Below are positions 1-30,347 of a stretch of DNA of 32,060 nucleotides, in pieces; within the stretch, counting starts at the first letter, position 1, and the number at the start of each line of letters is the position of its first letter. A program made the position numbers and the translations under genes. The DNA lies in the IMG/VR virus record IMGVR_UViG_3300032087_005722, positions 1 through 32,060 of that record, one strand, 5' to 3'. The notes beneath the pieces were generated by a model. The model was not told the origin of the DNA. It did not search any database and was given only the letters and a program-made list of their open reading frames with translations. The stretch comes from a virus.

Positions 1-91
1 TACAATGCAACTTGCCAATCAAGGTGTTTTCGGTGACGTTAACAGTATTTTTGTAAAAGAGCTTATATTAAAATCATTAGATTACCCACAT
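1..91. repeat. Left copy of 91-bp terminal direct repeat
   Basis: These 91 bases are identical to 31970-32060. The portal reading frame crosses the junction without interruption when the copies are merged. This indicates a circular or circularly permuted molecule of about 31,969 bp rather than two separate copies of a sequence. An assembler overlap is the simplest explanation; a short physical terminal redundancy is possible but less likely, because the repeat lies inside a coding region. Confidence 0.93.
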
Positions 92-415
92 TACAGAGCT
101 ATTATAGATAAATTAAAACAAGAAGAAGAACAGATGTCACAAGTACCGCAAGAACCGCAGTTTGAAGATTATCTTAAAAATGTACAAATAAGCTTAAAGG
201 ATATTATGGGAATGATATCTATGATGGATCCTCAATCACAATTTTTTGCAATCGATAGCGTAACAAGTGCATTAGGATTAGCTCCACCTCCTCCGCCTCC
301 TGCTCCTGCACCGTTACCACAGGATGAACAAGGATTAATGGAAGAGGATATTCAACAACAAGCTATTATGGATCAAGTCGCTCCTGAAGAAGGTATGGCT
401 TTAAACTTTTCATAA
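1..415 (+). CDS. Portal protein, C-terminal part (continues from 30348-32060)
   Basis: This is the 3' end of the portal gene that begins at 30348; the first complete codon here starts at base 2. The joined gene has 678 codons. The ATG at position 5 is internal (about residue 543) and not a start. The tail is acidic and glutamine-rich, with a proline tract around residues 635-646 (PPPPPPAPAP), probably a flexible end. The portal is the dodecameric ring at the capsid vertex through which DNA is packaged and ejected. The gene stops at 415 and converges with leftward genes. I see no clear rightward terminator after it. Confidence 0.88.
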   Translation, partial: TMQLANQGVFGDVNSIFVKELILKSLDYPHYRAIIDKLKQEEEQMSQVPQEPQFEDYLKNVQISLKDIMGMISMMDPQSQFFAIDSVTSALGLAPPPPPPAPAPLPQDEQGLMEEDIQQQAIMDQVAPEEGMALNFS

Positions 416-585: not shown

Positions 586-615
586 AAAAAACCCCAGCAA
601 AGCGGATTGCCGGGG
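586..615 (-). terminator. Rho-independent terminator of the leftward packaging operon
   Basis: On the minus strand a GC-rich stem (bases 607-615 pairing with 592-600, nine positions with one A/C mismatch, six-base loop) is followed directly by six T residues (plus-strand A586-A591). The U-tract exists only for leftward transcription. It lies about 95 bp past the MerR-like gene and so closes the operon that starts near 6755. Confidence 0.85.
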
Positions 616-710
616 GGAATATCCATAAGGTGATTATGAATACTTAATTATAACATATTAAAGGTGTCGATTTCGACCGGTTTAAAATAACTCAAACGTA
701 AATAAGACAA

Positions 711-887
711 CTATTCATATATATCCGATCTTAACTGTTGAATTTGCAGTTTAGAATAAAGTCTATAGTTGTTGATTGGGTGCCTTTTTGCATTTAATTT
801 ACCTTTTTTATCCCAACGCCTTAGAGTATAAGGATTTACACCTAATATGCTAGCTGCCTCTCGAACTGTTATTAACTTATCTTTCAT
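711..887 (-). CDS. MerR/excisionase-like DNA-binding protein, 58 aa
   Basis: A short gene reading MKDKLITVREAASILGVNP at its N terminus. Residues 6-26 form a MerR/HTH_17-type helix-turn-helix (T-V-R-E-A-A-x-x-L-G-V, then T-L-R-R-W), followed by a basic wing (around K-A-K-R-H-P). This architecture is typical of phage excisionases, Cox-type directionality factors and small MerR-like regulators. The family bends DNA next to att sites or represses promoters. The start ATG lies five bases from two 18-bp direct repeats and has no Shine-Dalgarno nearby, so autoregulation at those repeats is a reasonable inference. It is about 9 kb from the integrase, unusual for an excisionase, and is the last gene before the terminator. 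Whether it is Xis or a plain regulator cannot be told from sequence. Confidence 0.82.
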   Translation of the reverse strand: MKDKLITVREAASILGVNPYTLRRWDKKGKLNAKRHPINNYRLYSKLQIQQLRSDIYE

Positions 888-891
888 ATTA

Positions 892-930
892 TCGTGTACA
901 ACTTCCCACTTTTCGTGTACAACTTCCCAC
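892..930. repeat. Two 18-bp tandem direct repeats (iteron- or operator-like)
   Basis: TCGTGTACAACTTCCCAC occurs at 892-909 and again at 913-930, a 21-bp period, so both copies face the same side of the helix. Each contains the palindrome TGTACA. They sit immediately upstream of the MerR/excisionase-like gene start (887) and downstream of the AT-rich 307-aa gene. Likely roles are an operator for the MerR-like protein, Xis arm sites, or replication iterons; the sequence alone does not decide. Confidence 0.85.
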
Positions 931-941
931 CAAAATGCATA

Positions 942-1865
942 TTAATTAAATTGAGGTTCTAAAATTTTTTGATTTAACAAAAACATAAAACTACTTTCTA
1001 ACATATGAAAAATGTTATATTTACCAGAATTATTATACATACATAAATATACTTTTGTTTTTATATTTTTTCGCATCTGATCATCAGTTTTATATATATA
1101 TGATTCTCTCCATAATTCAGGTTCTGGTATATCTTCATGTTCTTGATATATTTTTTTATGTATTATATTTACATAATCATATTGATAAATTTTTGAAGCT
1201 AAATATAAAATTGGTTCAGTTACTATTTTTAACAATTTTTCCGATATGTCATTAAAATATAAATTTGCAAATGGCGACTGAAAACTATTGTGACTATTGC
1301 AGCCATCAAAAGTATATGTATCTTGATATAAATTATTTAATATAAAATTATTTAAATCTCTTTCTTTTTCTTCATTATCTTGTTCTTTTTCTCGAAAAAA
1401 TATATTTACTAAAGTTAAATTATATATATCTTGAATATTTAATAAATTAAAAAAATTTTTATTGTTATTGTCAGAAAATACACTTCTATCACTATTATTT
1501 AAATACATAAATATTATTTTCATTAAATTTTCATTGTATATTATATTTTGTTTTGTATTTTTATAACTAAATTTTTTTTTATTTAAAAATAATTCAAACA
1601 AATAATAAAAATAATTTAAATTTTCTTGTTTTTTTGTACAATAATTAATTAAATAATTATCTTTACTTTCTGCATCTATTCCTATACTGCAAAAAATACT
1701 TTTAATAATTTTAGATGTTTCTTCAGGATATTCTTGAAATTGACTTAAATTAGCATTACCTAAATCATTTGAATTAGTAAAAGATGATCCTAAATAACAA
1801 TTTTTATTCAATAACATTTCAGATATAATTTTTAGTAATTTTATTTTTTGTATTTTATATTTCAT
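942..1865 (-). CDS. Unknown AT-extreme protein, 307 aa
   Basis: I recognise no family. The protein is rich in Asn, Lys, Ile, Tyr and Phe, as expected from very AT-rich DNA; the 60 bases at 1561-1620 contain only three G or C. Start at 1865 is supported by AAGGTG nine bases upstream. No signal peptide or clear membrane helix is visible. A short acidic stretch (about residues 158-168, R-E-K-E-Q-D-N-E-E-K-E) interrupts the sequence. It lies 56 bp downstream of the DnaB-like helicase gene, with the same base composition, so the two probably arrived together and may act together, for example as helicase and partner or loader. That role is inference from context only. Confidence 0.75.
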   Translation of the reverse strand: MKYKIQKIKLLKIISEMLLNKNCYLGSSFTNSNDLGNANLSQFQEYPEETSKIIKSIFCSIGIDAESKDNYLINYCTKKQENLNYFYYLFELFLNKKKFSYKNTKQNIIYNENLMKIIFMYLNNSDRSVFSDNNNKNFFNLLNIQDIYNLTLVNIFFREKEQDNEEKERDLNNFILNNLYQDTYTFDGCNSHNSFQSPFANLYFNDISEKLLKIVTEPILYLASKIYQYDYVNIIHKKIYQEHEDIPEPELWRESYIYKTDDQMRKNIKTKVYLCMYNNSGKYNIFHMLESSFMFLLNQKILEPQFN

Positions 1866-1921
1866 TAAACACCTTAATTATTTAATTTACATAGCTTTCC
1901 ATTAGTTAATTTTTTATTTTA

Positions 1922-3100
1922 TCAAAAAGTATAATCTTCTAATTTTTGAATATTTTTATGTTCAGAAATATAGTCTCCTTCTATTAATTTAAATTTTTTC
2001 TTTAATTCTATATTTTGTCCATATCTATTTTTAACTGTTTTTATAGTTAAATACATATTTTTCCCATTTTCTGCTTCTTCATATTTTGATTGCAAAACTT
2101 TAGATTTATGATCTTTTATTTTAAGGTGTGAATTATTAAAAATATCTAATATTAAATCCGCTGGCCTATACATTCCTTTTGACTCTGCTAATTCTCCATC
2201 ATCAGAAACTTGACTACTAGTAATAATTATTGCATTAAACTTTACACATAATTTTGCTAGTTTAGAAGAAAGCAATTGTAATTTAAGCCAATTTCCTTCG
2301 GCAGCTTTTAAATTGTGATCTATTATCTGAATATAATCTAAAAAATAAACATGTGTTTTTTCTGGAAATTCTTTATTATTTACTTCAATTAGCTGCTCTA
2401 TTTCATCTAACATATATGTATTTTTATATATGCATAATTTTTTATTTTTTTTTAATTCAGTAATTTTTTCAAAGTTTTTTTGGTATTCTAAATTATTTTC
2501 AATTATATAATTACCTAATTTTTTTTGATGAGGAAGAGGAACTAAAGATGGACAGTGTTTTACAATTTTTTGCTTTGAAAAAATATTAATTAATTTCATA
2601 TTTAACATAATATGATTAGATTCCCATGAAAAAAAATGACAACTTACATTTTTATTTAAATTTGCTTTTTCAGTTAAAAAACGATGCATTAAATTTAATT
2701 TAAATGTAGTTTTACCATGATTAGACATTGCTTGAATAATAATAAATTGTCCTTTTGCAAATGTTATATAATCATCAATATTTTTTACACCAAAAAAAAG
2801 AGATTCTTGGCCTTTGGTTAATAAATTATTTTCAAATTCAGAAATTAACTCAACATTTTTAGATTCATCAAAGATACTGTTAATATTATTTTTATTAGTT
2901 AATTTTTTTATAAATTTTGGATCAGGTAATTTTTTATATATTATGTTTAAAAATTTTTTAATTTTTTCTTTATCTATATCATTATCTGTATTAAAACATT
3001 TTTCTAAACACAAACATAAATCATTTAATGTAATATGTTTTAAATTTTTAATTTTATCTATATTAGTTTGATTATCAATAAGATCAAATAATTTATCCAT
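1922..3100 (-). CDS. DnaB-like replicative helicase (RecA-fold ATPase), 392 aa
   Basis: The C-terminal two-thirds carries DnaB-type motifs in order: Walker A A-M-S-N-H-G-K-T-T (124-132), H1a glutamate in FFSWES (E160), Walker B FLDYIQII (D255), H3 SSQVSDDGE (Q297) and H4 VKNRYGQ (R359). The family forms hexameric rings that unwind DNA 5'-3' at the fork. The first glycine of the P-loop is alanine, a tolerated change in this superfamily. The roughly 110-residue N-terminal region does not obviously match the usual DnaB N-terminal domain, and the protein is shorter than typical DnaB (about 450-470 aa). Start ATG at 3100 has AGGTGA just upstream. Base composition is far more AT-rich than the terminase genes upstream. 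It sits in the packaging operon, away from the other replication genes. Confidence 0.85.
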   Translation of the reverse strand: MDKLFDLIDNQTNIDKIKNLKHITLNDLCLCLEKCFNTDNDIDKEKIKKFLNIIYKKLPDPKFIKKLTNKNNINSIFDESKNVELISEFENNLLTKGQESLFFGVKNIDDYITFAKGQFIIIQAMSNHGKTTFKLNLMHRFLTEKANLNKNVSCHFFSWESNHIMLNMKLINIFSKQKIVKHCPSLVPLPHQKKLGNYIIENNLEYQKNFEKITELKKNKKLCIYKNTYMLDEIEQLIEVNNKEFPEKTHVYFLDYIQIIDHNLKAAEGNWLKLQLLSSKLAKLCVKFNAIIITSSQVSDDGELAESKGMYRPADLILDIFNNSHLKIKDHKSKVLQSKYEEAENGKNMYLTIKTVKNRYGQNIELKKKFKLIEGDYISEHKNIQKLEDYTF

Positions 3101-3122
3101 AAATCACCTCATGGATATTATA

Positions 3123-3404
3123 TCACCATTTCACTTTATCTGCCCAATAAGCTGCACTCATTTTTCCCTTAGCTATATTCTTAGCGTGTCTTGCTTTAAA
3201 TGACTTTTGCCTAGCTTTTCCTTTAGAAGTCATAGGATTAGATCCTGCTCCTGATACTCCTTGTTGCCCAAACCTAATTGTTTTTACTTTATTTCCTTCT
3301 TTAGCTACGACTACGTGACTTTTAGTAGGATGGGAAGGAGTTTTTTTAGGTTTATTTACACCTGATACACCAACTCTTTTAATTAATGCTTTTAATCTAC
3401 TCAT
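3123..3404 (-). CDS. Small very basic protein, 93 aa
   Basis: Strongly basic (many Lys, Arg and His). The C-terminal third reads K-S-F-K-A-R-H-A-K-N-I-A-K-G-K-M-S-A-A-Y-W, a signature I associate with small phage and virus proteins of unknown function. A central Gly/Ser-containing segment (FGQQGVSGAGSNP) may be a loop. No membrane segment. Its ATG overlaps the TGA of the 46-aa gene upstream in an ATGA arrangement, so translation is probably coupled. The charge suggests nucleic-acid contact, perhaps DNA condensation or packaging, but that is inference. Confidence 0.85.
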   Translation of the reverse strand: MSRLKALIKRVGVSGVNKPKKTPSHPTKSHVVVAKEGNKVKTIRFGQQGVSGAGSNPMTSKGKARQKSFKARHAKNIAKGKMSAAYWADKVKW

Positions 3405-3541
3405 TTATAACCTTTTTTCTTGCTTTTATCTTTCATAGAATAGGCAATAGCTAGAGCTTGCTTCATTCCTTTTCCTGCTTTCCTTTCTTTTTTAACATTT
3501 TCTCCAAATGTTTTGTTAGATGTTCCGTATTTAAGAGGCAC
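3401..3541 (-). CDS. Small basic protein, 46 aa, GTG start
   Basis: A short gene beginning GTG at 3541 with a strong GGGAGG about eight bases upstream, giving VPLKYGTSNKTFGENVKKE and a Lys-rich tail containing K-Q-A-L-A-I-A-Y-S-M. The K-Q-A-[LV]-A-I-A pattern is common in short basic phage proteins (for example those labelled DUF6496), a resemblance judged by eye. It overlaps the end of the 72-aa gene by 11 bases and its TGA overlaps the next ATG, forming a tight translational chain. Function unknown. Confidence 0.75.
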   Translation of the reverse strand: MPLKYGTSNKTFGENVKKERKAGKGMKQALAIAYSMKDKSKKKGYK

Positions 3542-3749
3542 TGAACATTCCTCCCATGTAATGTCTTGGTTTAGCTTTGTAAACTTTATCCATAAGCTTA
3601 TTATAATCTATTGTAAGACAATCAATAGCATCTTTATACATATCAATTTGTGCAATATCGTCTAATTCTTCTATTGCCATATCGATACAAATGCTTGTTT
3701 CGTTATTTTCTTGATTATATTTAATAATAATTAGGTGTTCGCTTTTCAT
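3531..3749 (-). CDS. Hypothetical acidic protein, 72 aa
   Basis: An acidic small protein with no domain I can name: an N-terminal beta-type stretch (EHLIIIKY), a D/E-rich middle (IEELDDIAQIDMYKDAIDCL) and a basic C terminus (KAKPRHYMGGMF). The start ATG shares one base with the TGA of the zinc-ribbon gene (TGATG), so it is translated as part of the packaging operon. Confidence 0.7.
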   Translation of the reverse strand: MKSEHLIIIKYNQENNETSICIDMAIEELDDIAQIDMYKDAIDCLTIDYNKLMDKVYKAKPRHYMGGMFSAS

Positions 3750-4117
3750 CAGGCTCCTCTTTTTTTAAATTCATGTTCTATTTTGTCGACGAGTACGGCA
3801 TCTCTTTTCTTTGATTCTTGTTCATTAATGCGCTTATAACGCTTTGCCTCTCTTTGTATCTCTTCTTGTGACCCATATACGAGTCCTTCTTCTCTACATT
3901 TTCTGTCTATCTCAGCTGTAGATATCTGATTTCCATAATTAGACACATCATTTACATAGTTAATTCCTGCAAACATAGCACCTTTGTAATTCCCGTAATA
4001 AATAAACGTGTTATCTGACTTACACTTAAGGCAAGTAATTGTATTTTTAACTGGAAAACTTACATATTGTGATGTAATTTCTGTGCAGTCTCTGCACTTA
4101 ATGTCATGAATCGGCAT
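3749..4117 (-). CDS. Zinc-ribbon protein, 122 aa
   Basis: The N terminus has two CxxC knuckles, C8-x2-C11 and C29-x2-C32, separated by 17 residues: an FmdB-like zinc ribbon. The C-terminal half (about 70-122) is charged and helical (REAKRYKRINEQESKKRD). Proteins of this shape are often found beside phage terminase genes, with no established role; nucleic-acid binding is likely. The start overlaps the upstream coiled-coil/HTH gene by 14 bases. Confidence 0.8.
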   Translation of the reverse strand: MPIHDIKCRDCTEITSQYVSFPVKNTITCLKCKSDNTFIYYGNYKGAMFAGINYVNDVSNYGNQISTAEIDRKCREEGLVYGSQEEIQREAKRYKRINEQESKKRDAVLVDKIEHEFKKRGA

Positions 4118-4661
4118 TTATCTTTTTTAAAAAGTATTTTTTCAACTTTGCTCTTCTTACATAGTCAGGATTTTTTTCTTGTCCGTTAATAATCTGATAA
4201 AATCGAGACGGTTCTACCTTTAAAAACTTAGCAACTTCTGTGTGACTATAGCCTGAGCTGGCATATAGACCTTTTAGTTCTTCTGACGTGATAGAGGTAT
4301 CTAGAAACTTACTTGATTCAAACTCTTCTATCTTATTAACAATCTCATTTATTTTTTGCTCTACCCTTTCAAGTCTCTCGCCCATCATTCTTACGTTTTC
4401 TGATAGCACATATGGGTTAGATCTGTACTGTATTTCTTTAATTGACGTGTCATGCTCCATGACTCTTTTAGTAAGTTGATTTAAGTTACATTCTTTAGCT
4501 GAATCTATTTGTCTTTTGTTTGCTTCTACAGCAGCTTTAATTAAAAATATCTCATTTTTTTGCATTGCTAACTTTATTTGATCAACCACATTTCTTTGAA
4601 TTCCTGCCCTTAAGTCATCAAACTTCCTGTGCATATCCGTCATTATCATATCCATGTTCAT
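4104..4661 (-). CDS. Coiled-coil protein with C-terminal HTH, 185 aa
   Basis: A long helical N-terminal part includes a probable coiled coil (about 89-116, heptad-like ERLERVEQKINEIVNKIEE). The C terminus holds a helix-turn-helix (about 139-160, HTEVAKFLKVEPSRFYQI) and a basic tail. The combination suggests an oligomeric DNA-binding protein. It starts exactly at the large-terminase stop (one-base overlap) with GGAGG upstream. It might assist DNA recognition for packaging or regulate the late operon; it is not needed as small terminase because a better candidate exists at 6348-6755. Confidence 0.75.
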   Translation of the reverse strand: MNMDMIMTDMHRKFDDLRAGIQRNVVDQIKLAMQKNEIFLIKAAVEANKRQIDSAKECNLNQLTKRVMEHDTSIKEIQYRSNPYVLSENVRMMGERLERVEQKINEIVNKIEEFESSKFLDTSITSEELKGLYASSGYSHTEVAKFLKVEPSRFYQIINGQEKNPDYVRRAKLKKYFLKKINADS

Positions 4662-5971
4662 TATGTTCCTCCTTGAACGATTTGTTTTAGTGTCGGTTTG
4701 CTCGTGCCTAACTCGAAGGCATCCGCAGATTGCACTTTTATTTCTGCTAGATAACGCATTGCATATTGCAGCGCATCGCAGCTATGATCATCGAACTTCC
4801 TGACCTGTTCTTTCCTGTTTTCAGTGCCAGTCATAGCAGCTCTTTTATATTGGTAACGTTTGTGTTGACCCCAGGTATATTCACAGTTTTCCATAATGCG
4901 TAGTTGGTTTAAGTGAAACGCACGATTAACTAGCAAAATATTAGCCGTTTTGTCCTTGGTGCATTCAATTAAATTTAAACCTAACTTTATTAGATCTTCC
5001 CACATAGAATCTGCATCAACTCTACCTGTCTTCATAGAAAAATCAGCTACAATATCTAAGTTGCCATAACGCCTGCAAGCCTGTGCAATATCTTCTAGCG
5101 TTGCACCTTTTTTCTTCCATTCATCAAAAACATAGACATTGCCGTATTCATCTTTTGCACAAAACACAGCTGCACTATCATTCACTATTCCATGGTCAAA
5201 ACCGATACAACGATACCAATGTGGCTGTATCATTATCTGCTTCACTTTGTGATGATCTAACATTGCGGTATAGACACGATCACTTGTCTTTGACCAACCA
5301 CCATACAAATAACGATCAAGATAATCTTCTGGATAATTTTGCTGTAAATTGGCAATATAATTATCTGGCAAGTTAACTTGATTATCTTTAGTTTCTCCTG
5401 ATATAAAGTATATTCCTTGTCCTTGCCTAAATTCTTCAGTACTGTCGATATACAAGTCTTTCAAGTGACAGTCCGCCGGGTTTCCTTCGGTGAGCATTAA
5501 AGGACGAGGAACAGCTTTACCACTTAATCTTCCTAATACCTGCAAGTACAATGGCTCTGGTATCTCTTCTGCCTGTACTAACAGCGTAAAGTCATAGTTA
5601 TTACTCTTAATCTTAGAATCTCGATCAAAAGCTCTAAACGTCAACCTAGACCCATTAAAAAAAACGATCTCTCTTGCTGCACTCTTATAAACATAACTAT
5701 TCTCTTCAGGTGGAAAAGCCTCTAGAAACTGCACAATACAAGAATCCTGTAACTCCCCATACGTCATTCTTATTATTGATCCATTAGATCCTGGATAATT
5801 TAAACACAACAACAAAACAACAAACATCATTAAAAAGCTCTTTCCACATCTAAAAGCACCAAAAAATGCAAAGTGATTATAGTTATGATCTGTCCTTAAC
5901 TTATTGCCATTAAAGATCATCTTGAACATTGCTTTCTGTTTGTCATTTAACCTAATTACTTTTTTAGACAT
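4661..5971 (-). CDS. terL: Terminase large subunit, 436 aa
   Basis: The packaging motor ATPase and nuclease. Numbered from ATG 5971: Walker A G38-A-F-R-C-G-K-S45, Walker B-like FTLLVQAEE (128-136, catalytic Glu 135/136), coupling motif MLTEGNP (159-165), then an RNase H-fold nuclease with acidic residues D259 (GFDHG), D310 (IVADFS) and D394-D399 (DDHSCDALQYAMRY). I chose 5971 because it is preceded by a double AGGAAAGG; the frame is open 15 codons further to 6016 but that extension overlaps the gene upstream. It is translated after the membrane-protein gene, whose 3' end carries a G-quadruplex motif 29 bases before this start. Confidence 0.95.
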   Translation of the reverse strand: MSKKVIRLNDKQKAMFKMIFNGNKLRTDHNYNHFAFFGAFRCGKSFLMMFVVLLLCLNYPGSNGSIIRMTYGELQDSCIVQFLEAFPPEENSYVYKSAAREIVFFNGSRLTFRAFDRDSKIKSNNYDFTLLVQAEEIPEPLYLQVLGRLSGKAVPRPLMLTEGNPADCHLKDLYIDSTEEFRQGQGIYFISGETKDNQVNLPDNYIANLQQNYPEDYLDRYLYGGWSKTSDRVYTAMLDHHKVKQIMIQPHWYRCIGFDHGIVNDSAAVFCAKDEYGNVYVFDEWKKKGATLEDIAQACRRYGNLDIVADFSMKTGRVDADSMWEDLIKLGLNLIECTKDKTANILLVNRAFHLNQLRIMENCEYTWGQHKRYQYKRAAMTGTENRKEQVRKFDDHSCDALQYAMRYLAEIKVQSADAFELGTSKPTLKQIVQGGT

Positions 5972-5999
5972 CCTTTCCTTTCCTGTGTATGTATAACAT

Positions 6000-6236
6000 T
6001 TAACCCACCCACCCACCCCTTTCTACATTCTCTTGTTCTTCCGCATCCTTAAACACCTGATGCATACTAACCCCTTCCTGCTCCTGTAATAGCTTCCATG
6101 CTCCTATCGGATCACTATCACCCTTAAACAGCCATACTGCCCTCATAGCAATCGTAAAGGCCATCGTAAGGCTAAACACTAATAACAACAAAATTAATAA
6201 AGAAAAAAAATAAAATAGAAGTTGATTTATTAACAT
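6000..6236 (-). CDS. Small membrane protein, 78 aa
   Basis: From the ATG at 6236 the protein has one long hydrophobic segment (about residues 5-30, rich in Leu and Phe: LLFYFFSLLILLLLVFSL), followed by a cytoplasmic-looking polar tail ending R-G-G-W-V-G. The frame is open to 6302, but the extra 22 residues are polar and have no better ribosome site; neither start shows a clear Shine-Dalgarno. Position between the terminase subunits is odd for a lysis protein, though a holin or pinholin role is possible. Its last codons are the G-tract repeat described separately. Confidence 0.6.
   Translation of the reverse strand: MLINQLLFYFFSLLILLLLVFSLTMAFTIAMRAVWLFKGDSDPIGAWKLLQEQEGVSMHQVFKDAEEQENVERGGWVG
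6004..6019 (-). other. G-quadruplex motif, four G-tracts with one-base loops
   Basis: The minus strand reads GGGGTGGGTGGGTGGG, the most stable class of G4 sequence, in an AT-rich genome. It is on the coding strand, so the mRNA also carries it. It encodes the last residues of the membrane protein and lies 32 bp before the large-terminase start codon, where folding could influence terminase translation or DNA processing. The effect is inference. Confidence 0.85.
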
Positions 6237-6347
6237 AGGGGGGTCAAAAGGGTCTTGTTTTGGGAAATTAAAAATGTGTGTTTGGATATAACCCCACGGC
6301 ATACGAAACCCCCACGCCGCCGGAACTCGATTTTGAGTTTTTGGTTT

Positions 6348-6755
6348 TTAATCATTCTCTCCTCTCACCTCATAGATAACTTGCTGATTCATTACTTGAT
6401 TTTGTTGTTGTTGATTAAGCATTCCAGTGCACTCAGCCGCCAAGCGTAAAGATTTAACACAACCCTCAAATAAAGCCTTGTCTGATATTTTCTTCATTAA
6501 AAGCTGGCGTAAGGCATTTGCTTCAAAATTATCGGATTGAAGCTGGCCTACTATGTTTTTTAAATGCTTTTGGCATGTATTAATTGAAAGGCCACAATAT
6601 GAGGAAACCTCTGATAACGAGGGAATTCCCATGGACTTGTGTTCCATCAGGAATAAATAGGATTTAAGGATTTTATTTTTATTATTGTCTACTAATTTAC
6701 CTTCTAACTTGTTTCTTATTTTTTGTTCAAGCCTATTATTTTCTTTTTTAGTCAT
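6348..6755 (-). CDS. terS: Probable terminase small subunit, 135 aa
   Basis: A helical protein with a charged N terminus, a helix-turn-helix (about 48-66, LSEVSSYCGLSINTCQKHL), a second helical region and a Gln/Asn-rich linker (QQQQNQVMNQQ) before an acidic tail ending RGEND. Size, DNA-binding fold and position one gene upstream of the large terminase fit a small terminase, which binds the packaging site and recruits the motor. I did not recognise a specific family, so the call rests on context. No Shine-Dalgarno precedes the ATG. A weak promoter-like pair (TTGATT 6790-6785, CATAAA 6766-6761) would start transcription almost at the ATG. A general phage HTH regulator is the alternative. Confidence 0.65.
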   Translation of the reverse strand: MTKKENNRLEQKIRNKLEGKLVDNNKNKILKSYLFLMEHKSMGIPSLSEVSSYCGLSINTCQKHLKNIVGQLQSDNFEANALRQLLMKKISDKALFEGCVKSLRLAAECTGMLNQQQQNQVMNQQVIYEVRGEND

Positions 6756-9732: not shown

Positions 9733-10686
9733 TCATATATTTTTTACCGTTTTGAGTTTTTTAAATTCTTTAGTTATTAGTGTCTCACTGTTTGAGTAAT
9801 AGATACTTGTCATATGAGAGCTACTATGTCCAACATACTTGCTCACCGCTTCAAGCGAAAATCCTTGTGCCAATGCATTAGAAATAAAAGCTTTTCTTAA
9901 ATCGGAAAATTTAAACTTTTGGGTGTGCTTGTAATCTTTCTTTGAAAAGCGATACCAATAATTAAGAAGTAATTGAGTGCTACGATAGGGAAAAATAAAT
10001 TGTTTGTCATAATATGGAATAGATTTTAAAATTTGTCTGGCAGTCTCATTAAGAATAATTGTTCGGCCTTGCCCTTTATTAACTGAAAAACTTGGAATAT
10101 ATAACTTAGTCTCTTTTTCGTTATAATGCTTGTGCTTGATTCTGTGCAATTCTTGTAGCCTCACGCCTGTGGAATATAAAAAAATAACAGTGTAATAAAG
10201 CTTCATCACGCTACTATCTTTATGTTGTTCCAACTTTCTTCTTCCTTTTGTTGTGTCTACAGCTAATGATTGCTTTATTTTTTTTTTGAAATATAAAATT
10301 TGATCTTCTGTAACTGTTTGAGTCTTTGGTTTTGGCTTTGCCGATAATCGATCATTGAATACAACTTCTTTATCTAGGTAAGTATTTAAATAAAGAAACG
10401 ATAAATAACGTTTAAATATACTAAAAGTTATTTTTGCGTGGCTTTGTGAGTACTTATTTTGCAACTTGCCCTTAAAATCCTCTACAATCGCATAATTTAT
10501 TTTATCAATGTGTAAAGCTTCTGGCATTAACATTTTAATGTTTTGAATAGCTGTATAAGCATGTTTTTTTGTTGCTTGTGTTATTTTTGTACTTTCTTGA
10601 TATTCTTTTACAAAAAATATATCTATTAACACATTAAAATGCCTAGAAGTGTCTTCAATTTTCTTTTTCTTGAATATATTAAACAT
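9733..10686 (-). CDS. int: Tyrosine recombinase/integrase, 317 aa
   Basis: Site-specific recombinase that would integrate the phage into the host chromosome. N-terminal SAM-like arm/core-binding domain (about 12-115) and C-terminal catalytic domain with R176 (STGVRLQELHRIKH), candidate Lys K204, R264 in FSDLRKAF, H287 in YVGHSS and nucleophile Y296 (IYYS). The usual His of the HxxR box is Ser261, a variation also known in active members. Length is close to typical phage integrases. Its own promoter lies at 10728-10700. No Shine-Dalgarno precedes the ATG. I could not identify an attP core or a tRNA fragment next to it. Confidence 0.93.
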   Translation of the reverse strand: MFNIFKKKKIEDTSRHFNVLIDIFFVKEYQESTKITQATKKHAYTAIQNIKMLMPEALHIDKINYAIVEDFKGKLQNKYSQSHAKITFSIFKRYLSFLYLNTYLDKEVVFNDRLSAKPKPKTQTVTEDQILYFKKKIKQSLAVDTTKGRRKLEQHKDSSVMKLYYTVIFLYSTGVRLQELHRIKHKHYNEKETKLYIPSFSVNKGQGRTIILNETARQILKSIPYYDKQFIFPYRSTQLLLNYWYRFSKKDYKHTQKFKFSDLRKAFISNALAQGFSLEAVSKYVGHSSSHMTSIYYSNSETLITKEFKKLKTVKNI

Positions 10687-12288: not shown

Positions 12289-12984
12289 ATGACTAAACAA
12301 GAAAATCAATTCAAAAAATTACAAGATATTAACGTCGATAAGTATAGGGAAAAAAAGGGCAGGTTTGATTATCTATCTTGGGCAATAGCACTACGAGAAC
12401 TAAAAAAAATATATCCTACTGCTACATTTGAAGTTATTAAATATGATAACAAGCCATACTGTAAGACTGAAACTGGGTATTTTGTGGAGGTAGCCGTTAC
12501 AGTAAATGACGTTACACAATCACAAATACATCCGGTATTAGATAATGCTAACAGACCCATAGTTAAACCAAATTGCTTTGAAATTAACACGTCAATTCAA
12601 AGATGCCTGGCTAAGGCCATAGCACTTCATGGGCTTGGGCTTTCACTGTTTGCAGGAGAGGATCTTGAGCAATACGACGAGAAAAAAACTACTGCAAAGC
12701 CAGCAACACAAAACACGCCAAATATCGATTACAGTAAAAGTGTAAAAGTGGAGCAACAGCCTAACGATGATTATTGGGGTGATGCGGTAATTCCAGAGAC
12801 TAACTTCGATTTTGATGACAATTCAAAGCCTAAATTAGCAGAAGAAAATAAAGATAAAAATAATATCCAAAACCCTGCAACTGAAAAACAACTTGCTTTA
12901 TTAAGAAAAAAAGGTGTAATCTCTGATACTGATATTGTTACAAAGCAGGAAGCATCTGTATTAATCGGTAACATGTTCAAATAA
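12289..12984 (+). CDS. Single-strand annealing protein, Sak/DUF1071 type, 231 aa
   Basis: Residues about 15-128 match the DUF1071/Sak family: F-D-Y-L-S-W-A-I-A-L-R-E-L-K-K-I-Y-P (26-43), K-P-Y (55-57), a V-E-V-A-V-T-V strand, V-L-D-N-A-N-R (83-89) and R-C-L-A-K-A-I-A-L-H-G-L-G-L (105-118), ending F-A-G-E-D-L. The family anneals complementary strands during phage recombination and repair. A low-complexity linker leads to a C-terminal module (about 196-231, A-T-E-K-Q-L-A-L-L-R-K-K-G-V and T-K-Q-E-A-S-V-L-I) common at the ends of phage DNA-binding proteins. The ribosome site is AAAGGAG. Confidence 0.88.
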   Translation: MTKQENQFKKLQDINVDKYREKKGRFDYLSWAIALRELKKIYPTATFEVIKYDNKPYCKTETGYFVEVAVTVNDVTQSQIHPVLDNANRPIVKPNCFEINTSIQRCLAKAIALHGLGLSLFAGEDLEQYDEKKTTAKPATQNTPNIDYSKSVKVEQQPNDDYWGDAVIPETNFDFDDNSKPKLAEENKDKNNIQNPATEKQLALLRKKGVISDTDIVTKQEASVLIGNMFK

Positions 12985-13002: not shown

Positions 13003-14253
13003 TTGATTAAGAATTATTGTCAATTGCCAGTATCGTTACAAAAAAGCGAGGTAGGATTTCACTTCTTCCTCGCTATTTCTCAGAACAGTTCTGTATCAAA
13101 TAAATTAGTACATGATCGTTTTGGTGTCAAGATTAATTTACCTAAAAATTCTTACGTTTCGTCACAGTATCAGCTAGCTAAAAAGCTTGGCTGGACACGA
13201 AAAAAAATAAGAGTAGCGCAACAAAAGCTCCAAGATCAAGGCTATATGACAATCAAGCCATTATATTTTAAGAAACGAAAAATCGGCTCCATGTACTTTT
13301 TAAAATTTAACCAAGCTGGAGAAGCGATCGTAGATCAAGGGCCTATACTTTTAGACAGAAAATACCTATCAAAAAACTATTTTAAATTAGTGCCAAAAAA
13401 GGAAACTAAGCACAAAAAAGAGTATAATAATGGTATGAAAGACATCAACGAAATTATTAACAATTTAAGTTCAAATCAAGTCGAAGGGCCTATCATTAAA
13501 GAAGAGAAAAATAAATATCCTATTCCTTACTCCTGTAATAATGATAAAGTCACAAAAAAAGAAGCCGTCATAAAAAAGCACTGTAACCGGCAGGATCAGG
13601 ATGTCTTAAAATTTACACAATGGGCTACAAAGCACGGTTTAAACCTTAGAGAGGAGTTTAAAAACCTTGCTTATGAAGCTAATCATTACTCACCAAACAA
13701 AATTGATCTAAAAAAAGTACTTGCAGAATTGAAAGAGGAAACGCTAAATCCGCTTTACAGCATTTACAACTTGCTTTGCATGAAAGGAAAAATCATGGAG
13801 CAGGCAGGTAAGCAGCAGGAAGCAAGGTTTTTCAAGGAATGGCACAGATACGCAGAAGGTAGTTATTACGCAAGAGAAACTATAGAGCAAATAAGAGCAG
13901 CTATGTGTTTTTACCGTGACAAGATCATGAGTAAAGTAAAGCTTGAAAACCAAAAGAAACAGAAAATAGAGCAGGAAAAGGAATCAGATATACAAGCAAA
14001 TTTAACTAGAGCTGCCAGGAAATACTGGGAAGAGTTACAGGCTAGCGATAAAGAAGAGGCTGAAAAAATCATCAAGAAGGCAAATATCTTGAATATGAAG
14101 ACTAGAGGCATGTTAGACGTTGCTAAGATGTCTAATTTAAAGAATAAGAAGGCTCTCTATCAATTTGCAATGTCATGCATTGAGATAGAATTACTTAAAA
14201 TAGACGAACACAAACAAAAAATTGAGAAATTAGCGGAGATGACTCATGTATAA
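13003..14253 (+). CDS. Winged-helix replication-initiator-like protein, 416 aa
   Basis: The start is TTG at 13003, with AAAAAGGA eight bases upstream and no in-frame ATG nearby. Residues about 50-105 form a winged helix (Y-Q-L-A-K-K-L-G-W-T-R-K-K-I-R-V-A-Q-Q-K, then G-Y-M-T-I-K), as in phage O-like and DnaD-like replication proteins. The C-terminal half is helical and highly charged (K/E-rich from about 300), probably coiled coil. Position between the annealing protein and the nuclease fits an origin-binding initiator that recruits a helicase. If so, the origin may lie in or near this gene. The family assignment is tentative. Confidence 0.65.
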   Translation: MIKNYCQLPVSLQKSEVGFHFFLAISQNSSVSNKLVHDRFGVKINLPKNSYVSSQYQLAKKLGWTRKKIRVAQQKLQDQGYMTIKPLYFKKRKIGSMYFLKFNQAGEAIVDQGPILLDRKYLSKNYFKLVPKKETKHKKEYNNGMKDINEIINNLSSNQVEGPIIKEEKNKYPIPYSCNNDKVTKKEAVIKKHCNRQDQDVLKFTQWATKHGLNLREEFKNLAYEANHYSPNKIDLKKVLAELKEETLNPLYSIYNLLCMKGKIMEQAGKQQEARFFKEWHRYAEGSYYARETIEQIRAAMCFYRDKIMSKVKLENQKKQKIEQEKESDIQANLTRAARKYWEELQASDKEEAEKIIKKANILNMKTRGMLDVAKMSNLKNKKALYQFAMSCIEIELLKIDEHKQKIEKLAEMTHV

Positions 14254-15241: not shown

Positions 15242-15261
15242 TTTCATGGAGGGCTTTGCTA

Positions 15262-15639
15262 ATGTCTTTTCTAAAATCACTCGAAAGGAAAACCGAAACG
15301 TCGGACGAAAAGTTGTGGTATTGGATACGCTGCCTTTACCCAAATTTAACTAAAATACTAGTTAGAGAACACCGTTTTTGTGAAAGAAAGTTTAGATTTG
15401 ACTTTGCTTTTGTTGATGAAAAAATAGCTATTGAGTGTGACGGCGGAACGCACTTAATTAAAACTAAAGCAGGTCAATTAGTACCTGGCAGACACAGCTC
15501 AGATAAAGATTATGAGAAAAGAAATATTGCAGCTCTTAATGGCTGGAAAATGCTGGCCTTTACTAGCAAACAAATTAAAAACGATCCTAAAGGGTGCGTT
15601 GATACGATTAAGGAGATGTACGAAAAATGGAAAAAATAG
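15262..15639 (+). CDS. PD-(D/E)XK nuclease, Vsr/DUF559-like, 125 aa
   Basis: ATG 15262 is well spaced from GGAGGG; a TTG two codons earlier is too close to it. The core reads F-R-F-D47-F-A-F-V-D-E-K-I-A-I-E58-C-D60-G-G-T-H, followed by G-R-H ... D-Y-E-K87-R-N-I-A-A-L-N-G-W-K-M-L, the layout of Vsr/DUF559-type nucleases. Such genes in phage recombination blocks often act as Holliday-junction resolvases or repair endonucleases, and that is the likely role here. Homing endonuclease is less likely because it is embedded in an operon with overlaps. Confidence 0.82.
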   Translation: MSFLKSLERKTETSDEKLWYWIRCLYPNLTKILVREHRFCERKFRFDFAFVDEKIAIECDGGTHLIKTKAGQLVPGRHSSDKDYEKRNIAALNGWKMLAFTSKQIKNDPKGCVDTIKEMYEKWKK

Positions 15640-17563: not shown

Positions 17564-18421
17564 CTATATTTGTACTGCCGTATCTAACAGCTGAGATTGA
17601 CTGTAGTATCCAGATATAAAATATGTTACTCGCAAATTGAAACCGCCTCCTAAAGAAGCCTGAACAAAAACAGAATTATTGTTATCAATACCAAAAATTA
17701 GCCCTAAGTTATTACTAATTGCAGTTGCAGTTCCTATTGGGGTAGACGAATTAGTTGAAACAGCATAGATTGAATAAATGTTTGTTATCGTACCTGTTGG
17801 AATAGCAAAAAATATTCCTGCGATTGCATTTATTCCAGATGAATAATCAATGATTTTATACTTATTTGAGCCGCCAACCGTTACGTCTAATGTTTTAGTT
17901 ATAAAACCTGAGTTTCTTAACTCTTTTGATTCTAATTGCGGTTTCACATTTAAATTTAATCGAGTTGAAGAAACAGCATATCCAATAATATATGCACGTA
18001 CTCCTGGATTTGTAACTGTAATTCCTCCATCAACACCTATGTAATATGCCGCACCAACAATTAAAGATGAATAAGATTCATAAAATTGATTAGACACAGC
18101 AACAGTAGCTCCAGATGTTACTGTTTGTGTGGCTACTCCAATTACCTGCGTTATTCCAGTGTCATTTATGTTTGTTGCCTTTACTGCATTACCAGATGAT
18201 ATTCTTAATACATCTCCTGCTGATATATCCTCACCAGCAGTAACGTTAAATGTTTCTGTAGGTAAGCCTGTAAATGTTGTTGCAGTAACATTCTGAAAAG
18301 TCACATCATAGTTGCCAGAAGTTAACCAAGTAACAGACTGAGTCCAGTTGCCATCATGATCAGTCTGATCAAATGGCGTTCCGTCATACATATTTAAATC
18401 GCTTGTGGATGGTGTTGTCAT
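17564..18421 (-). CDS. Virion surface/fibre-like protein, 285 aa
   Basis: Beta-rich, Thr/Ser/Gly/Val-rich throughout. Residues about 58-160 (FNVTAGEDISAGDVLRISSG onward) resemble the DUF2190/decoration-type module, also seen in the 175-aa protein at 27237-27764. The C-terminal half (from about 170) looks like a trimeric fibre or capsid-binding domain, ending in a Tyr/Ser-rich strand region. The gene is in the virion operon, coupled by ATGA overlap. A head fibre, or a tail-spike tip with host-binding function, are both possible. Confidence 0.7.
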   Translation of the reverse strand: MTTPSTSDLNMYDGTPFDQTDHDGNWTQSVTWLTSGNYDVTFQNVTATTFTGLPTETFNVTAGEDISAGDVLRISSGNAVKATNINDTGITQVIGVATQTVTSGATVAVSNQFYESYSSLIVGAAYYIGVDGGITVTNPGVRAYIIGYAVSSTRLNLNVKPQLESKELRNSGFITKTLDVTVGGSNKYKIIDYSSGINAIAGIFFAIPTGTITNIYSIYAVSTNSSTPIGTATAISNNLGLIFGIDNNNSVFVQASLGGGFNLRVTYFISGYYSQSQLLDTAVQI

Positions 18422-19896
18422 TTTACTACTCCTCTTTCATTTTCAATTTGTTCTTGATTAGTAATTTTTCCAACAGGATCTCTTGTTATAGGTGTAAATC
18501 CTCTTGCTAAAAATTTTCCTATAACTCTAGGAACGTATTGGCCTTTAGTTATAATTTGTCTTTGAACTAATGGACTTGAAAGACCTAGCCCTGCAGCTGT
18601 AGTTAGTAATCCTGTCATAGGGTCACTAGTTATAAATCCTGTACCTGCTCCTGTTCCTAAAATTAAATTTGAAATTTTTGGCATACCTTTTTCTGTTCCA
18701 GCTAAAGCTACTCCTTTTTCATAAAACTTTTTTTGTGGAGGTAAAATATCGCTAAATGCTTTAAGCTGTTCTTGTAATTCAATTGGCTGTTCTCTTGATG
18801 TTTTAAATAATCCTTGAGCTCTTTTTCCTTTTTGAAATTTTCCTATTAATGGATCAGTTAAAGTGCTTAAATCTTCAATTTTTTTTCTAATTTCTCCTAC
18901 TTTACCTTTACTTATATCTTTAACTTCACCTCGTAATTTATTAGCTACTTTTAATAACAATTGATCTGTATCACCTAATTGAGATACTTTTAACTCATCA
19001 TTTTTTGCTGCAAATGCACCGCTTTTCCTTAGTGATCTGTCTATTTTTTGTAGTATTTCTAGTCTTCCTGCAGGACTAGGATCATTTTTTATTAAATCTA
19101 AAACACTTTTTACTGCATTTTTTGTTTCTTCTGAATATCTAGCAGTATTACCACGCATTTTATTTAATTCTTTTAAAGTATCTTCAACTACTGTATTTTT
19201 TATAAATTTTTCATCTGCTAAGGTAATAGCTTTTTGCGCTTTATCTACTTCTTTTAATTGTTGTTTGTTTAGTCTTTTTTTAACTTTAGATATTGTTTTT
19301 AAAGATTTTCTAGCACTTTTTACAACTTTTTCTAAATTTGTACCCTTAACTAATTCTGGATTTTCTATTAAATATTCTAATGATTCTGCAGGTGCACCTG
19401 ACATAGCAGACATTCCTTTTGAGACTGGTTTTTTAGCAAGTTGAAATCCTTTTCCTATTGCAGATCCGATTCCGCCTGTTACTGCATCTATAACACCTGC
19501 TTTTATTCCTGATTTTATTGCTTGGCCTGCAGTTTCACCTCTTGTTAATCCTTCAGCAATTCTTGAACCACCTGTAATACCAGCACCTATAATTCTTCCT
19601 GGTATTGTTTGTTTAAGTGCTAATCCTGCAAAAGGAGCAATTTGTGAAGCAACATTTATTGCTTTTTTTATACCTTTTGGCTTTACTGCAGCAGGCATTT
19701 GCCTAGCATCAATTTCTCGTTGTCTTTCAGCAAGTTCGTTTTCAAATTCTATAGTTTCTTTAGATTTCCAATTTAATTCTGAAGATATTTCATCAATTGT
19801 TTTTTGTTTGTCTTCTTCTGATAATGATTCAAAAGTATCACTAATATTAATTTTTATTTTTTCACCTGTATTTGGATTAGTAATATTTATTTTCAT
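18418..19896 (-). CDS. Internal virion (ejection) protein, 492 aa
   Basis: I start at ATG 19896 (GGGAGAGAG upstream), which shares one base with the previous stop; the frame continues five codons higher. The N terminus has a ubiquitin-like or docking region (M-K-I-N-I-T-N-P-N-T-G-E-K-I), then a Gly/Ala-rich hydrophobic helix region (about 70-150, G-L-A-L-K-Q ... G-G-I-G-S-A-I-G-K-G), a long Lys-rich coiled coil (180-380) and a second Gly-rich hydrophobic part (410-450). This mixture of membrane-active and coiled segments is typical of podovirus ejection proteins that make the DNA channel through the envelope. Confidence 0.75.
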   Translation of the reverse strand: MKINITNPNTGEKIKINISDTFESLSEEDKQKTIDEISSELNWKSKETIEFENELAERQREIDARQMPAAVKPKGIKKAINVASQIAPFAGLALKQTIPGRIIGAGITGGSRIAEGLTRGETAGQAIKSGIKAGVIDAVTGGIGSAIGKGFQLAKKPVSKGMSAMSGAPAESLEYLIENPELVKGTNLEKVVKSARKSLKTISKVKKRLNKQQLKEVDKAQKAITLADEKFIKNTVVEDTLKELNKMRGNTARYSEETKNAVKSVLDLIKNDPSPAGRLEILQKIDRSLRKSGAFAAKNDELKVSQLGDTDQLLLKVANKLRGEVKDISKGKVGEIRKKIEDLSTLTDPLIGKFQKGKRAQGLFKTSREQPIELQEQLKAFSDILPPQKKFYEKGVALAGTEKGMPKISNLILGTGAGTGFITSDPMTGLLTTAAGLGLSSPLVQRQIITKGQYVPRVIGKFLARGFTPITRDPVGKITNQEQIENERGVVK

Positions 19897-21044
19897 TAAT
19901 CTCTCTCCCACGTTTGACCTGTTTGAGTAGATCCTGTCTGAACTGTTTCTTTTTTAAAAGGATCAGAAAATAAAAGTTGTCTAGGATCAATAATTGCTTT
20001 TGCATTTAATTTGTCTAACTCTACTGATAAACTACCAAGAGCTTGCGCAATTGCTTCTTCAGATTGACCTTCTCTTAATGCTAATGCTGCAGATTTTAAA
20101 AGCTGAATATCTTTATCTGAAACATTACCAAGAGATCCTCCAGTTGGACTATTTTCTCTAATCTGTTGTAACCTATCTAAAGTTAAATTGGATATTATAA
20201 AATCTTTAGCAGCGTCGGCATCACGTTGAGGTTTAAAACCACCTGCTCTATAAGATCTTTGTAATACTGGATTTACTGCTAAATATTTACCTAGGTCTGT
20301 TAATTCCCATGTTCCTTGTTCATTTTGTCTAATAAGTTTATCTATATTTGTTTTAATATTTTGATTTTTCTTTAATACATTTTTATTATATGCAACTTCT
20401 TTTTGTACTTGTTTTTTTCTAGCATTTAATTCTTTTTCATTAACAAAATCTATAGATTTATCTCCAGATAGCGGAACTTTTATTAAAAATCTATCAGGTA
20501 TATTTTCTGTTTCTAATGGATCTGATATTTTTTTATAACCTTTCTGAATGAGAGTAATTTCTGTTTGCCTATCTTGTTTTTTTTGAGCTCTTAATGCTTC
20601 ATCTCTTTCATTTTGTATAGTTTTTAATTCTTCATCTTTATCTGCTTGTATTTGTAATTTTTTTCGTCTAGTTTCTTCTTCTTCTTTAAATTTTTCAGCT
20701 GCTAAAGTAGATTGTCTTTCTGCCTTTGATCTAACATTTTCATCTATTCTGCTAGAAATATTAGATAAAGCACTTGCCATAGTGTCTTCACCTTCTGCTG
20801 CTGCTACAACAGATCCAATACTAGCTAATGCAGAATATGTACTAGGATCTTTTGCAAGTTCTGTTAATTTAGAAAGGATAGGATTGTCTTGTCTGTTATC
20901 ATTAAATTGTTTCCCAGTTATTTGGTTCTGGGGAACAGAATCAGTCTGCATTTGATTTATTAATTTTGCTGCCATGTCTTCTCGATCAACTTTAAATGTT
21001 TCAGGAGGTAATTTTGCAAAATCTAAAAGTCTATTTACTGCCAT
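19896..21044 (-). CDS. Internal virion (ejection) protein, 382 aa, coiled coil
   Basis: A long K/E/R/Q-rich coiled coil (about 100-165, A-E-K-F-K-E-E-E-E-T-R-R-K-K-L) is preceded by a small Ala/Ser-rich hydrophobic stretch (Y-S-A-L-A-S-I-G-S-V-V-A-A) and followed by a mixed domain containing L-T-D-L-G-K-Y-L-A-V-N-P. Block position and composition match podovirus internal virion proteins. No transglycosylase motif seen. Start overlaps the Gly/Ala-rich gene stop by one base. Confidence 0.7.
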   Translation of the reverse strand: MAVNRLLDFAKLPPETFKVDREDMAAKLINQMQTDSVPQNQITGKQFNDNRQDNPILSKLTELAKDPSTYSALASIGSVVAAAEGEDTMASALSNISSRIDENVRSKAERQSTLAAEKFKEEEETRRKKLQIQADKDEELKTIQNERDEALRAQKKQDRQTEITLIQKGYKKISDPLETENIPDRFLIKVPLSGDKSIDFVNEKELNARKKQVQKEVAYNKNVLKKNQNIKTNIDKLIRQNEQGTWELTDLGKYLAVNPVLQRSYRAGGFKPQRDADAAKDFIISNLTLDRLQQIRENSPTGGSLGNVSDKDIQLLKSAALALREGQSEEAIAQALGSLSVELDKLNAKAIIDPRQLLFSDPFKKETVQTGSTQTGQTWERD

Positions 21045-21407: not shown

Positions 21408-22193
21408 CTAAAAAAATTTTCCAAATGTTAATTGTTTAAGTTTGTCTTTTGTACTTTTACCTTTACCTCTTTGAAGTGATTTAAAGGTGTCAAAACTTTT
21501 AGCTTGCTCAGCTGCATCAAATTGTGGTCTTCCTTCTGCTGTTACACCTTTAGCAAATGCTTTTTCTTGTGCATTTATTGCTCGTTGTCTTGCAAACTCT
21601 TGTTGCGCTGCTCTATCTGCTCTTGCCTGTTCGATTTCTGACATCCGTTCTGCTCTTGCCTGTTGCGCTTCTTGCATCCCTCTTTGAGCTGCAAACTGTT
21701 GCCTTACACCTCTATCTGCTAATGCTTGTTGTAATGCTACTTGCTCAGCTCTATTAGCTAAGTCTGTTTGCATTCTGTTTTGCTGTCTTTGCATCATTAA
21801 AGCTGCTTCTGGCCCTCTAACTCCTGCCTGTTGTAACGCTATTCTTCCCTGTGCAGCCGCTCTTTGTTGTTCAGGCAAAGCTTGTTGTCTAATTAATTCT
21901 TGTAATCTTGTAACCGCTGCTGGGGTTCCTGTAGTTTCGGCATCAAATTCTGCACTTCTTCCTAATCTAAACGGACCACCACTAACTCTAAATGGCGTTC
22001 CTGTTGCTTGTTGAAAATCTGATATACCTCTTTCATATTCAACACCTGCTTGTTGTCCTATTTCTCCTAATAAAGCTCTTTCTCTAGCTGACGCACGATC
22101 TGCTTCTTGTGCTGCAAGAATTGATTCTAGTCGTGTTTGTCCTTGTTGTGTTTCTGCTGCTCTTCTTTGTGCTGATCTTTTTTTACTTCCCAT
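21408..22193 (-). CDS. Ejection-type protein, Gln/Ala/Arg-rich, 261 aa
   Basis: Almost wholly helical and very rich in Q, A, R and E (A-Q-R-G-M-Q-E-A-Q-Q-A-R-A-E-R-M-S-E-I-E), with basic termini (M-G-S-K-K-R-S-A-Q-R-R-A-A-E). A short central part (about 63-90, T-G-T-P-F-R-V-S-G-G-P-F-R-L-G) breaks the helix. Composition and position between the acetyltransferase and other internal proteins fit a T7 gp14-like internal protein. Base composition is higher in GC than the rest of the genome, owing to Ala/Arg content. Confidence 0.7.
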   Translation of the reverse strand: MGSKKRSAQRRAAETQQGQTRLESILAAQEADRASARERALLGEIGQQAGVEYERGISDFQQATGTPFRVSGGPFRLGRSAEFDAETTGTPAAVTRLQELIRQQALPEQQRAAAQGRIALQQAGVRGPEAALMMQRQQNRMQTDLANRAEQVALQQALADRGVRQQFAAQRGMQEAQQARAERMSEIEQARADRAAQQEFARQRAINAQEKAFAKGVTAEGRPQFDAAEQAKSFDTFKSLQRGKGKSTKDKLKQLTFGKFF

Positions 22194-22650
22194 ACTTTAT
22201 CTCCTTTTCAAAATATGTTTCTGTTTCAACATATTTATTTTTTTTTATTAACTTAACGATTGGATTTTTAGTGCTTGATATAACTATTAATCTTTTTAAA
22301 TTATTTTCTTTAGCCCATTTATCAGCTTTATCTAATAAATTTTGTAAAATTCTATACTTTGTTTTTGAAGGTAAATTACTATTACAATGCCAAACTCTTT
22401 CAATTCCTGTAGCATGAGGACAAAGATTCATTTTAGTTATTTCAAAAACAATAGATCCAACTATTTCATTTTTAATTTTAGCAACTAAAACAAGTCCTTT
22501 ATTTTCTAAAACATCTATTAAATCTGTTAAAACTTCTTTTAAATTAAATATATATTTAAATTCTGCATATTTATTTTGATCTGTATTCCAATCTTTTAAT
22601 TTTTCTATATACTTTTCTACGTCTTTTTTTTGTAAATTATCTATGTTCAT
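22183..22650 (-). CDS. GNAT-family N-acetyltransferase, 155 aa
   Basis: A GNAT fold read by its order of elements: LVLVAKIKNEIVGSIVFEI (beta2-beta4, with G-S-I-V), E-R-V-W-H-C-N then S-K-T-K-Y-R-I-L-Q-N-L-L-D-K-A (the acetyl-CoA loop and helix 3), and L-K-R-L-I-V-I-S-S-T-K-N-P-I-V-K-L-I-K-K-N-K-Y (beta5, helix 4). The canonical Q/R-x-x-G-x-G/A loop is degenerate (N-L-P-S-K-T-K). Such genes are often found among tail and ejection genes of phages; the substrate is unknown. Overlaps both neighbours. Confidence 0.75.
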   Translation of the reverse strand: MNIDNLQKKDVEKYIEKLKDWNTDQNKYAEFKYIFNLKEVLTDLIDVLENKGLVLVAKIKNEIVGSIVFEITKMNLCPHATGIERVWHCNSNLPSKTKYRILQNLLDKADKWAKENNLKRLIVISSTKNPIVKLIKKNKYVETETYFEKEIKYGK

Positions 22651-30247: not shown

Positions 30248-30347
30248 AACGAAAATCATGCAAGTAGATTACAATTTAAGTTTAAAATTTCCATTTTTAC
30301 TAGAATATATTGTAAAAAAAAGTGTAAAAAAAAAGTTAGAATTAAGT

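Follow-up and report, generated by a model that had tools for sequence, protein, structure and literature searches.

A temperate phage of ∼32 kb with a circular map probably has a hypervariable slot for cargo genes (morons), filled in this genome by a gene for a DnaB-type helicase, a gene for a 307-amino-acid protein and a small helix-turn-helix (HTH) gene. The slot is proposed because five contents are found in five genomes and because similarity in the closest pair breaks off sharply at a ribosome-binding site that is conserved in both. The proposed slot is bounded by the last conserved packaging-side gene, of 93 amino acids, and by the portal gene, whose 3′ end converges on the slot from the other side. 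The window, i.e. the whole stretch of DNA that was analysed, comprises the 32,060 bases of the source record, IMGVR_UViG_3300032087_005722 (positions 1–32,060). A preliminary description of this DNA had interpreted the helicase and 307-amino-acid genes as a two-gene replication module imported into the packaging operon. The foreignness of the genes to the operon is upheld by the present analysis; the two-gene replication module is not.

Genome organization

The record carries an exact terminal repeat of 91 bp and thus closes into a circle of 31,969 bp, which is the whole genome map. The map is cut within the portal gene, whose open reading frame at 30258–32060 resumes at 5–415 (plus strand; phrog_156, E = 5e-37), and this 3′ end bounds the slot on its far side. 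Genes on the minus strand span positions 711–6755. Their order starts with small packaging-side genes, which are followed by TerL (4661–6016; phrog_2, E = 4e-31), more small genes and the 93-amino-acid gene (3123–3404; phrog_7595, E = 1e-38). The last is 94, 80 and 89% identical in three relatives and bounds the slot on the packaging side. The order ends with the helicase gene (1922–3100), the 307-amino-acid gene (942–1865), the 58-amino-acid HTH gene (711–887) and a terminator. The helicase and 307-amino-acid open reading frames are thus placed as previously described, on the minus strand and in the same orientation as the terminase genes. The intrinsic terminator (592–615, minus strand) has a 9-bp stem with six GC pairs, followed by TTTTTT. 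Placed after the HTH gene, it marks the end of the minus-strand cassette (read from 615 to 592), opposite the convergent portal gene with its stop at 415; three terminator-like sites were found, against 1.8 expected. Promoter-like matches are at chance level, including a site at 3146–3117.

A tyrosine integrase gene (9733–10686) marks the phage as temperate. TerL and portal matches among 84,980 genomes revealed no prophage and no host, and tRNA and Rfam scans of the whole window were empty. A replication module is found elsewhere in the genome, at 11.4–15.2 kb. It includes a Sak-like annealing protein (SSAP; 12289–12984, E = 4e-53) and a DnaD-like protein with a weak match (13003–14253, E = 7e-4). 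A DUF559/MTES_1575-type endonuclease-like protein (15256–15639) is also encoded there and shows 74% identity in the closest relative.

Contents of the slot in related phages

A TerL search of IMG/VR identified three relatives, and a portal search added the L004 near-copies and the distant contig L035. The closest relative, G001 (contigs L002, L005 and L006), is 31.9 kb long; G002 and G003 are partial, with 16 and 21 kb. G001 has a TerL 88–89% identical to that of the window and is syntenic over essentially the whole genome, with 75–92% identity in most late (capsid-side) genes. It carries neither the helicase nor the 307-amino-acid gene. Neither PF03796 nor phrog_19 detected a DnaB gene in G001 or in the partial G002 and G003; both profiles were positive in 14 of 14 control genomes.

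From the 94%-identical 93-amino-acid gene, DNA similarity between the window and G001 extends past the stop codon, over the spacer and the Shine-Dalgarno sequence, as far as the next ATG, and ends there. The spacer and Shine-Dalgarno sequence, GAGGTGATTT (3101–3122, minus strand), is common to the window and L002, and the window/L002 alignment of the junction reads ...TGGTGATATAATATCCATGAGGTGATTTATGG against ...TGGTGATATAGTATTTATAAGGTGATTAATGG. Beyond the ATG, the G001 slot contains a 143-amino-acid open reading frame, a 477-amino-acid Cas12f/TnpB-like nuclease and a CRISPR array. The compact type V CRISPR locus is found at L002 13792–16173, equivalent to L006 17517–19898. The nuclease is Cas12f/Cas12u4-like (PADLOC, E = 1e-33) with a Cas12f1-like TNB domain (E = 2e-16), and it displays RuvC D/E/D-like motifs and two CxxC pairs; it has solved TnpB/Cas12f relatives. 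The array has at least six repeats of 35 nt with spacers of 26–33 nt. The contig ends inside the array, and the slot content was read as far as this end. No cas1 or cas2 was seen near the locus.

One of the spacers, spacer 3 (L006 19683–19715, 33 nt), is similar to nicotinamide phosphoribosyltransferase genes of Pseudomonas phages, with 83–92% similarity over 24–30 nt and a best E of 0.09 among the matches listed. Translated in the frame of these genes, it gives FGFAVKA, which suggests as its target a competing phage with NAD-salvage genes. For two other spacers no match was convincing. Immediately upstream of the 93-amino-acid gene, and in G001 only, is a gene for a C-5 cytosine DNA methylase (L002 12570–13361; Pfam E = 8e-49, 43% GC), a second variable point beside the slot.

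The slot of L003 contains a gene for a DUF5659 protein, two small open reading frames and then, directly before the portal stop, a 312-amino-acid homolog of the 307-amino-acid protein; no helicase is present in this slot. L004 has other small open reading frames and a DUF5659 protein. In L035, whose portal is 57% identical, the portal gene is followed by an integrase, a hydrophobic 136-amino-acid protein and a hydrolase. The window, G001, L003, L004 and L035 thus have five different contents at one position.

A tRNA-like sequence with an anticodon loop enlarged to ∼27 nt is present in L003 (9857–9962) and L004 (4326–4437). It is missed by ARAGORN and Rfam and is absent from the window. Directly after it in L003 is a 63-amino-acid protein that resembles the arm-binding start of tyrosine integrases, and the slot of L004 encodes a similar protein of 72 amino acids. 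The far edge of the slot in the window displays a 22-nt palindromic motif, GTCGATTTCGACCGGTTTAAAA / GTCGAWTTCGACCGGTTTAAAA (666–687, plus strand), which also adjoins the portal stop in L004 (5905–5926). Exact copies are found in 14 IMG/VR contigs, some clearly unrelated; in one of the unrelated contigs, L030, the motif is near an integrase and forms part of a longer perfect palindrome.

The helicase

The helicase gene encodes 392 amino acids with a RecA-type fold. The translated sequence matches Pfam DnaB_C (PF03796; E = 4e-11, 43.1 bits, above the curated cutoff of 27) and phrog_19 (E = 1e-20). Walker A GKT (residues 129–131), the catalytic E160, Walker B D255, Q258 and Q297 are all kept. An alignment with three phage DnaB proteins, to which the helicase is only about 22–24% identical, also shows conservation of the KNRYG (arginine-finger) region and its C-terminal K/R. 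TIGR00665 and TIGR03600 give 30 bits against cutoffs of 385 and 499. By these profiles the protein is classed as a divergent relative of the DnaB family and not a canonical DnaB equivalog. There is no match to the Pfam N-terminal DnaB domain, and the ∼95 residues before the core are too few for a full N-domain. No close relative was detected by tblastn in the phage collection, where E-values are marginal only, by tblastn in plasmids or in viral-contig scans. Structure prediction of the protein alone gives a pLDDT of 33.

As the catalytic motifs are intact, the protein is probably an active DnaB-type ATPase, and its most likely role is that of a replicative helicase which the phage owns as an accessory. 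Like other DnaB-type enzymes it would be a hexameric ring, loaded onto phage DNA by the DnaD-like/Sak module that the phage itself encodes. Such a helicase would relieve dependence on the host DnaB; the closest relative manages without it.

The 307-amino-acid protein

Family profile searches (Pfam, PHROG and PADLOC) give no significant match for the 307-amino-acid protein. The sole homolog is the L003 protein (L003:10431–11369), which is 41% identical (E = 2e-63) and whose gene has 21% GC; tblastn in phages and viral-contig scans detect no further relative. Structure prediction of the 307-amino-acid protein together with this homolog gives a pLDDT of 35. A PHROG family of virion structural proteins matched weakly (E = 0.024); the match is not shared by the homolog and was rejected as chance. 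Nothing ties the protein to replication, and no initiator or Rep family is recognised in it. The protein is a fast-evolving orphan, separable from the helicase, and is probably an independent moron. As such it would most likely serve inter-phage or lysogeny functions, independently of the helicase.

The HTH gene and the direct repeats

The last gene of the minus-strand cassette encodes a 58-amino-acid MerR-type HTH protein (MerR, E = 2e-11; HTH_17, E = 7e-7; PADLOC mad1, a MerR-like HTH, E = 2e-13). Just upstream are two perfect 16-nt direct repeats, GTGTACAACTTCCCAC, at 894–909 and 915–930, with a period of 21. No second exact copy arose in any of 100 shuffles. The repeats had been linked with the imported replication module, but, placed upstream of the HTH gene, they resemble its operator rather than an origin of replication. 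The HTH gene is probably autorepressed by its product through this putative operator. Two other identities were considered for the repeats and rejected: a CRISPR remnant, as the spacer is 5 nt and there is no Cas gene, and iterons, as there are two copies only, no recognised Rep family and the usual position of an operator.

Base composition

GC content is 15–23% in all 500-bp windows between 1001 and 3000, against a genome mean of 32%, and it bears out the earlier observation that the helicase and 307-amino-acid genes are far more AT-rich than their surroundings. The lowest 2150-bp stretch of the genome starts at ∼951 and has 19.0% GC, a value reached by none of 1000 block shuffles. The hand counts on which the observation had relied are exact, with three G/C in 60 at 1561–1620, the genome minimum, and 31 in 60 at 5461–5520; the latter is an unusually GC-rich point of comparison, TerL overall having 37% GC.

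The 307-amino-acid gene has 17.5% GC and a GC3 of 8.2%, and the helicase gene about 20.1–20.2% GC and a GC3 of 9.2%. Back-translation of the two proteins with the core codon usage of this phage yields 24 and 26% GC, respectively, so that amino-acid content accounts for just over half of the GC deficit. The remainder is codon choice: GC3 is 8–9% against 25% expected, and none of 1000 simulations was as low. This codon choice suggests that the occupants of the cassette came from an AT-rich gene pool.

An equally low GC3 is found in tail-side genes, with 7% at 18418–19911, 9% at 19896–21044 and 11% at 22183–22650, and two of these three genes are missing from the closest relative. The tail-side region formed by 18418–21044 and 22183–22650 is itself also strongly different from G001. 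Over the genome, genes without a G001 counterpart have 27% GC, against 34% for conserved genes (Mann-Whitney p = 0.0008), and the main slot occupants in L002 and L003 are likewise AT-rich, with 21–23% GC. In this lineage low GC accompanies gene turnover, which agrees with the lower GC of accessory compared with core genomes that is general in bacteria (PMC5303225).

Origin of the cassette

As the comparison with G001 shows, cargo is exchanged at the ribosome-binding site behind the 93-amino-acid gene. With a swap at this point, each new occupant can inherit the translation signal. That the genes are foreign to the operon, as previously proposed, agrees with their absence from G001, with the other cargo that starts from the same Shine-Dalgarno sequence and ATG, and with a codon choice unlike that of core genes. 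Long co-residence would have placed the same AT-rich pair in all relatives; the pair is present in none of the four.

The adjacency, common orientation and similar composition of the genes, the direct repeats and HTH gene at one end and the replicative type of the helicase could also point to a co-inherited replication module, e.g. a plasmid-like iteron replicon imported recently as a unit. This is quite unlikely, as L003 has a homolog of the 307-amino-acid gene in this slot and no helicase next to it. There are, moreover, only two repeats, in the usual position of an operator, and the 307-amino-acid protein belongs to no recognised initiator family and shows no link to replication. Nor does the composition date the import. 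At only 41% protein identity, the L003 homolog has just as low a GC content (21%), and low GC is therefore a lasting property of the 307-amino-acid family or of its donor pool and not a clock. A broader proposal is that AT-richness is a lasting trait of weakly constrained accessory genes, produced by relaxed selection and AT mutational bias, and not the mark of a recent import. The L003 homolog, the same GC3 in resident variable tail genes and the general difference between accessory and core genes in bacteria (PMC5303225) favour it, but the presence/absence pattern and the sharp junction still demand horizontal exchange. This is possible, though on the unlikely side. It is compatible with a cargo slot, and composition would then be silent on timing.

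The slot could instead be a dedicated island of inter-phage conflict, with the helicase and 307-amino-acid protein themselves acting as a pair in anti-phage defence or counter-defence. In exactly this slot the closest relative carries a CRISPR array and a Cas12-like nuclease, one of its spacers resembles phage NAD-salvage genes, and the cargo evolves fast and is rich in AT, two traits that are frequent in defence genes. PADLOC models match neither protein, however, DnaB-type helicases are normally replication enzymes, and the two genes do not travel together, which makes a conflict system of this kind unlikely. More doubtful still is a combined scheme in which the helicase and the orphan were swapped with CRISPR-Cas12 behind one inherited ribosome-binding site, both serving inter-phage competition. 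If it were true, the CRISPR occupant would destroy rivals, the helicase would free the phage from a host helicase disabled by rivals or defences, and the 307-amino-acid protein would be a new inter-phage factor. Finally, the helicase is found in one genome only and the source is a metagenomic contig, and a chimera of metagenome assembly might give such a picture. It is hardly credible here, as the genome closes by the exact 91-bp overlap, the junction keeps the Shine-Dalgarno sequence and ATG common to L002, and the 307-amino-acid homolog is in the same slot of an independent contig.

With a cargo slot as the preferred explanation, the segment between the phrog_7595 gene and the portal stop points to where an otherwise undescribed phage group keeps exchangeable genes. 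It is an address at which to seek new compact CRISPR systems, helicases and orphan morons. The extreme composition is a sign of gene turnover but gives no date for it, since the diverged homolog is just as AT-rich.

Comparison with known systems

Moron turnover in a temperate phage is of a known kind, and the most striking aspect is the replacement of the helicase by a compact CRISPR-Cas system in the closest relative. As with the morons of temperate phages, the window cassette is patchy in distribution and deviant in composition, and it comes last in a late operon, before an intrinsic terminator. It differs from morons and lysogenic-conversion cargo in that it includes a replicative-type helicase.

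The helicase shares with the DnaB family (phrog_19, PF03796) the RecA-type ATPase core with Walker A, the catalytic Glu, Walker B, Q and the arginine-finger region. Unlike family members with a full N-terminal domain, it has only ∼95 residues before the core, and its gene lies outside the replication module, in a cargo slot where the packaging and portal genes meet.

Phage-encoded compact type V CRISPR-Cas is already known (Al-Shayeb et al., 2022, as cited in PMC12607003). The G001 slot resembles these V-U/V-F systems in that a TnpB/Cas12f-like protein of 477 amino acids is encoded beside a CRISPR array; this is the occupant of the relative, whereas the window has neither a CRISPR array nor a Cas gene. 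The 93-amino-acid gene also occurs in packaging modules of circular 35-kb aquatic phages; in phage C72C1, for example, the phrog_7595 gene is near the terminase small subunit and portal genes, but in another gene order, and the DnaB cargo is not seen there.
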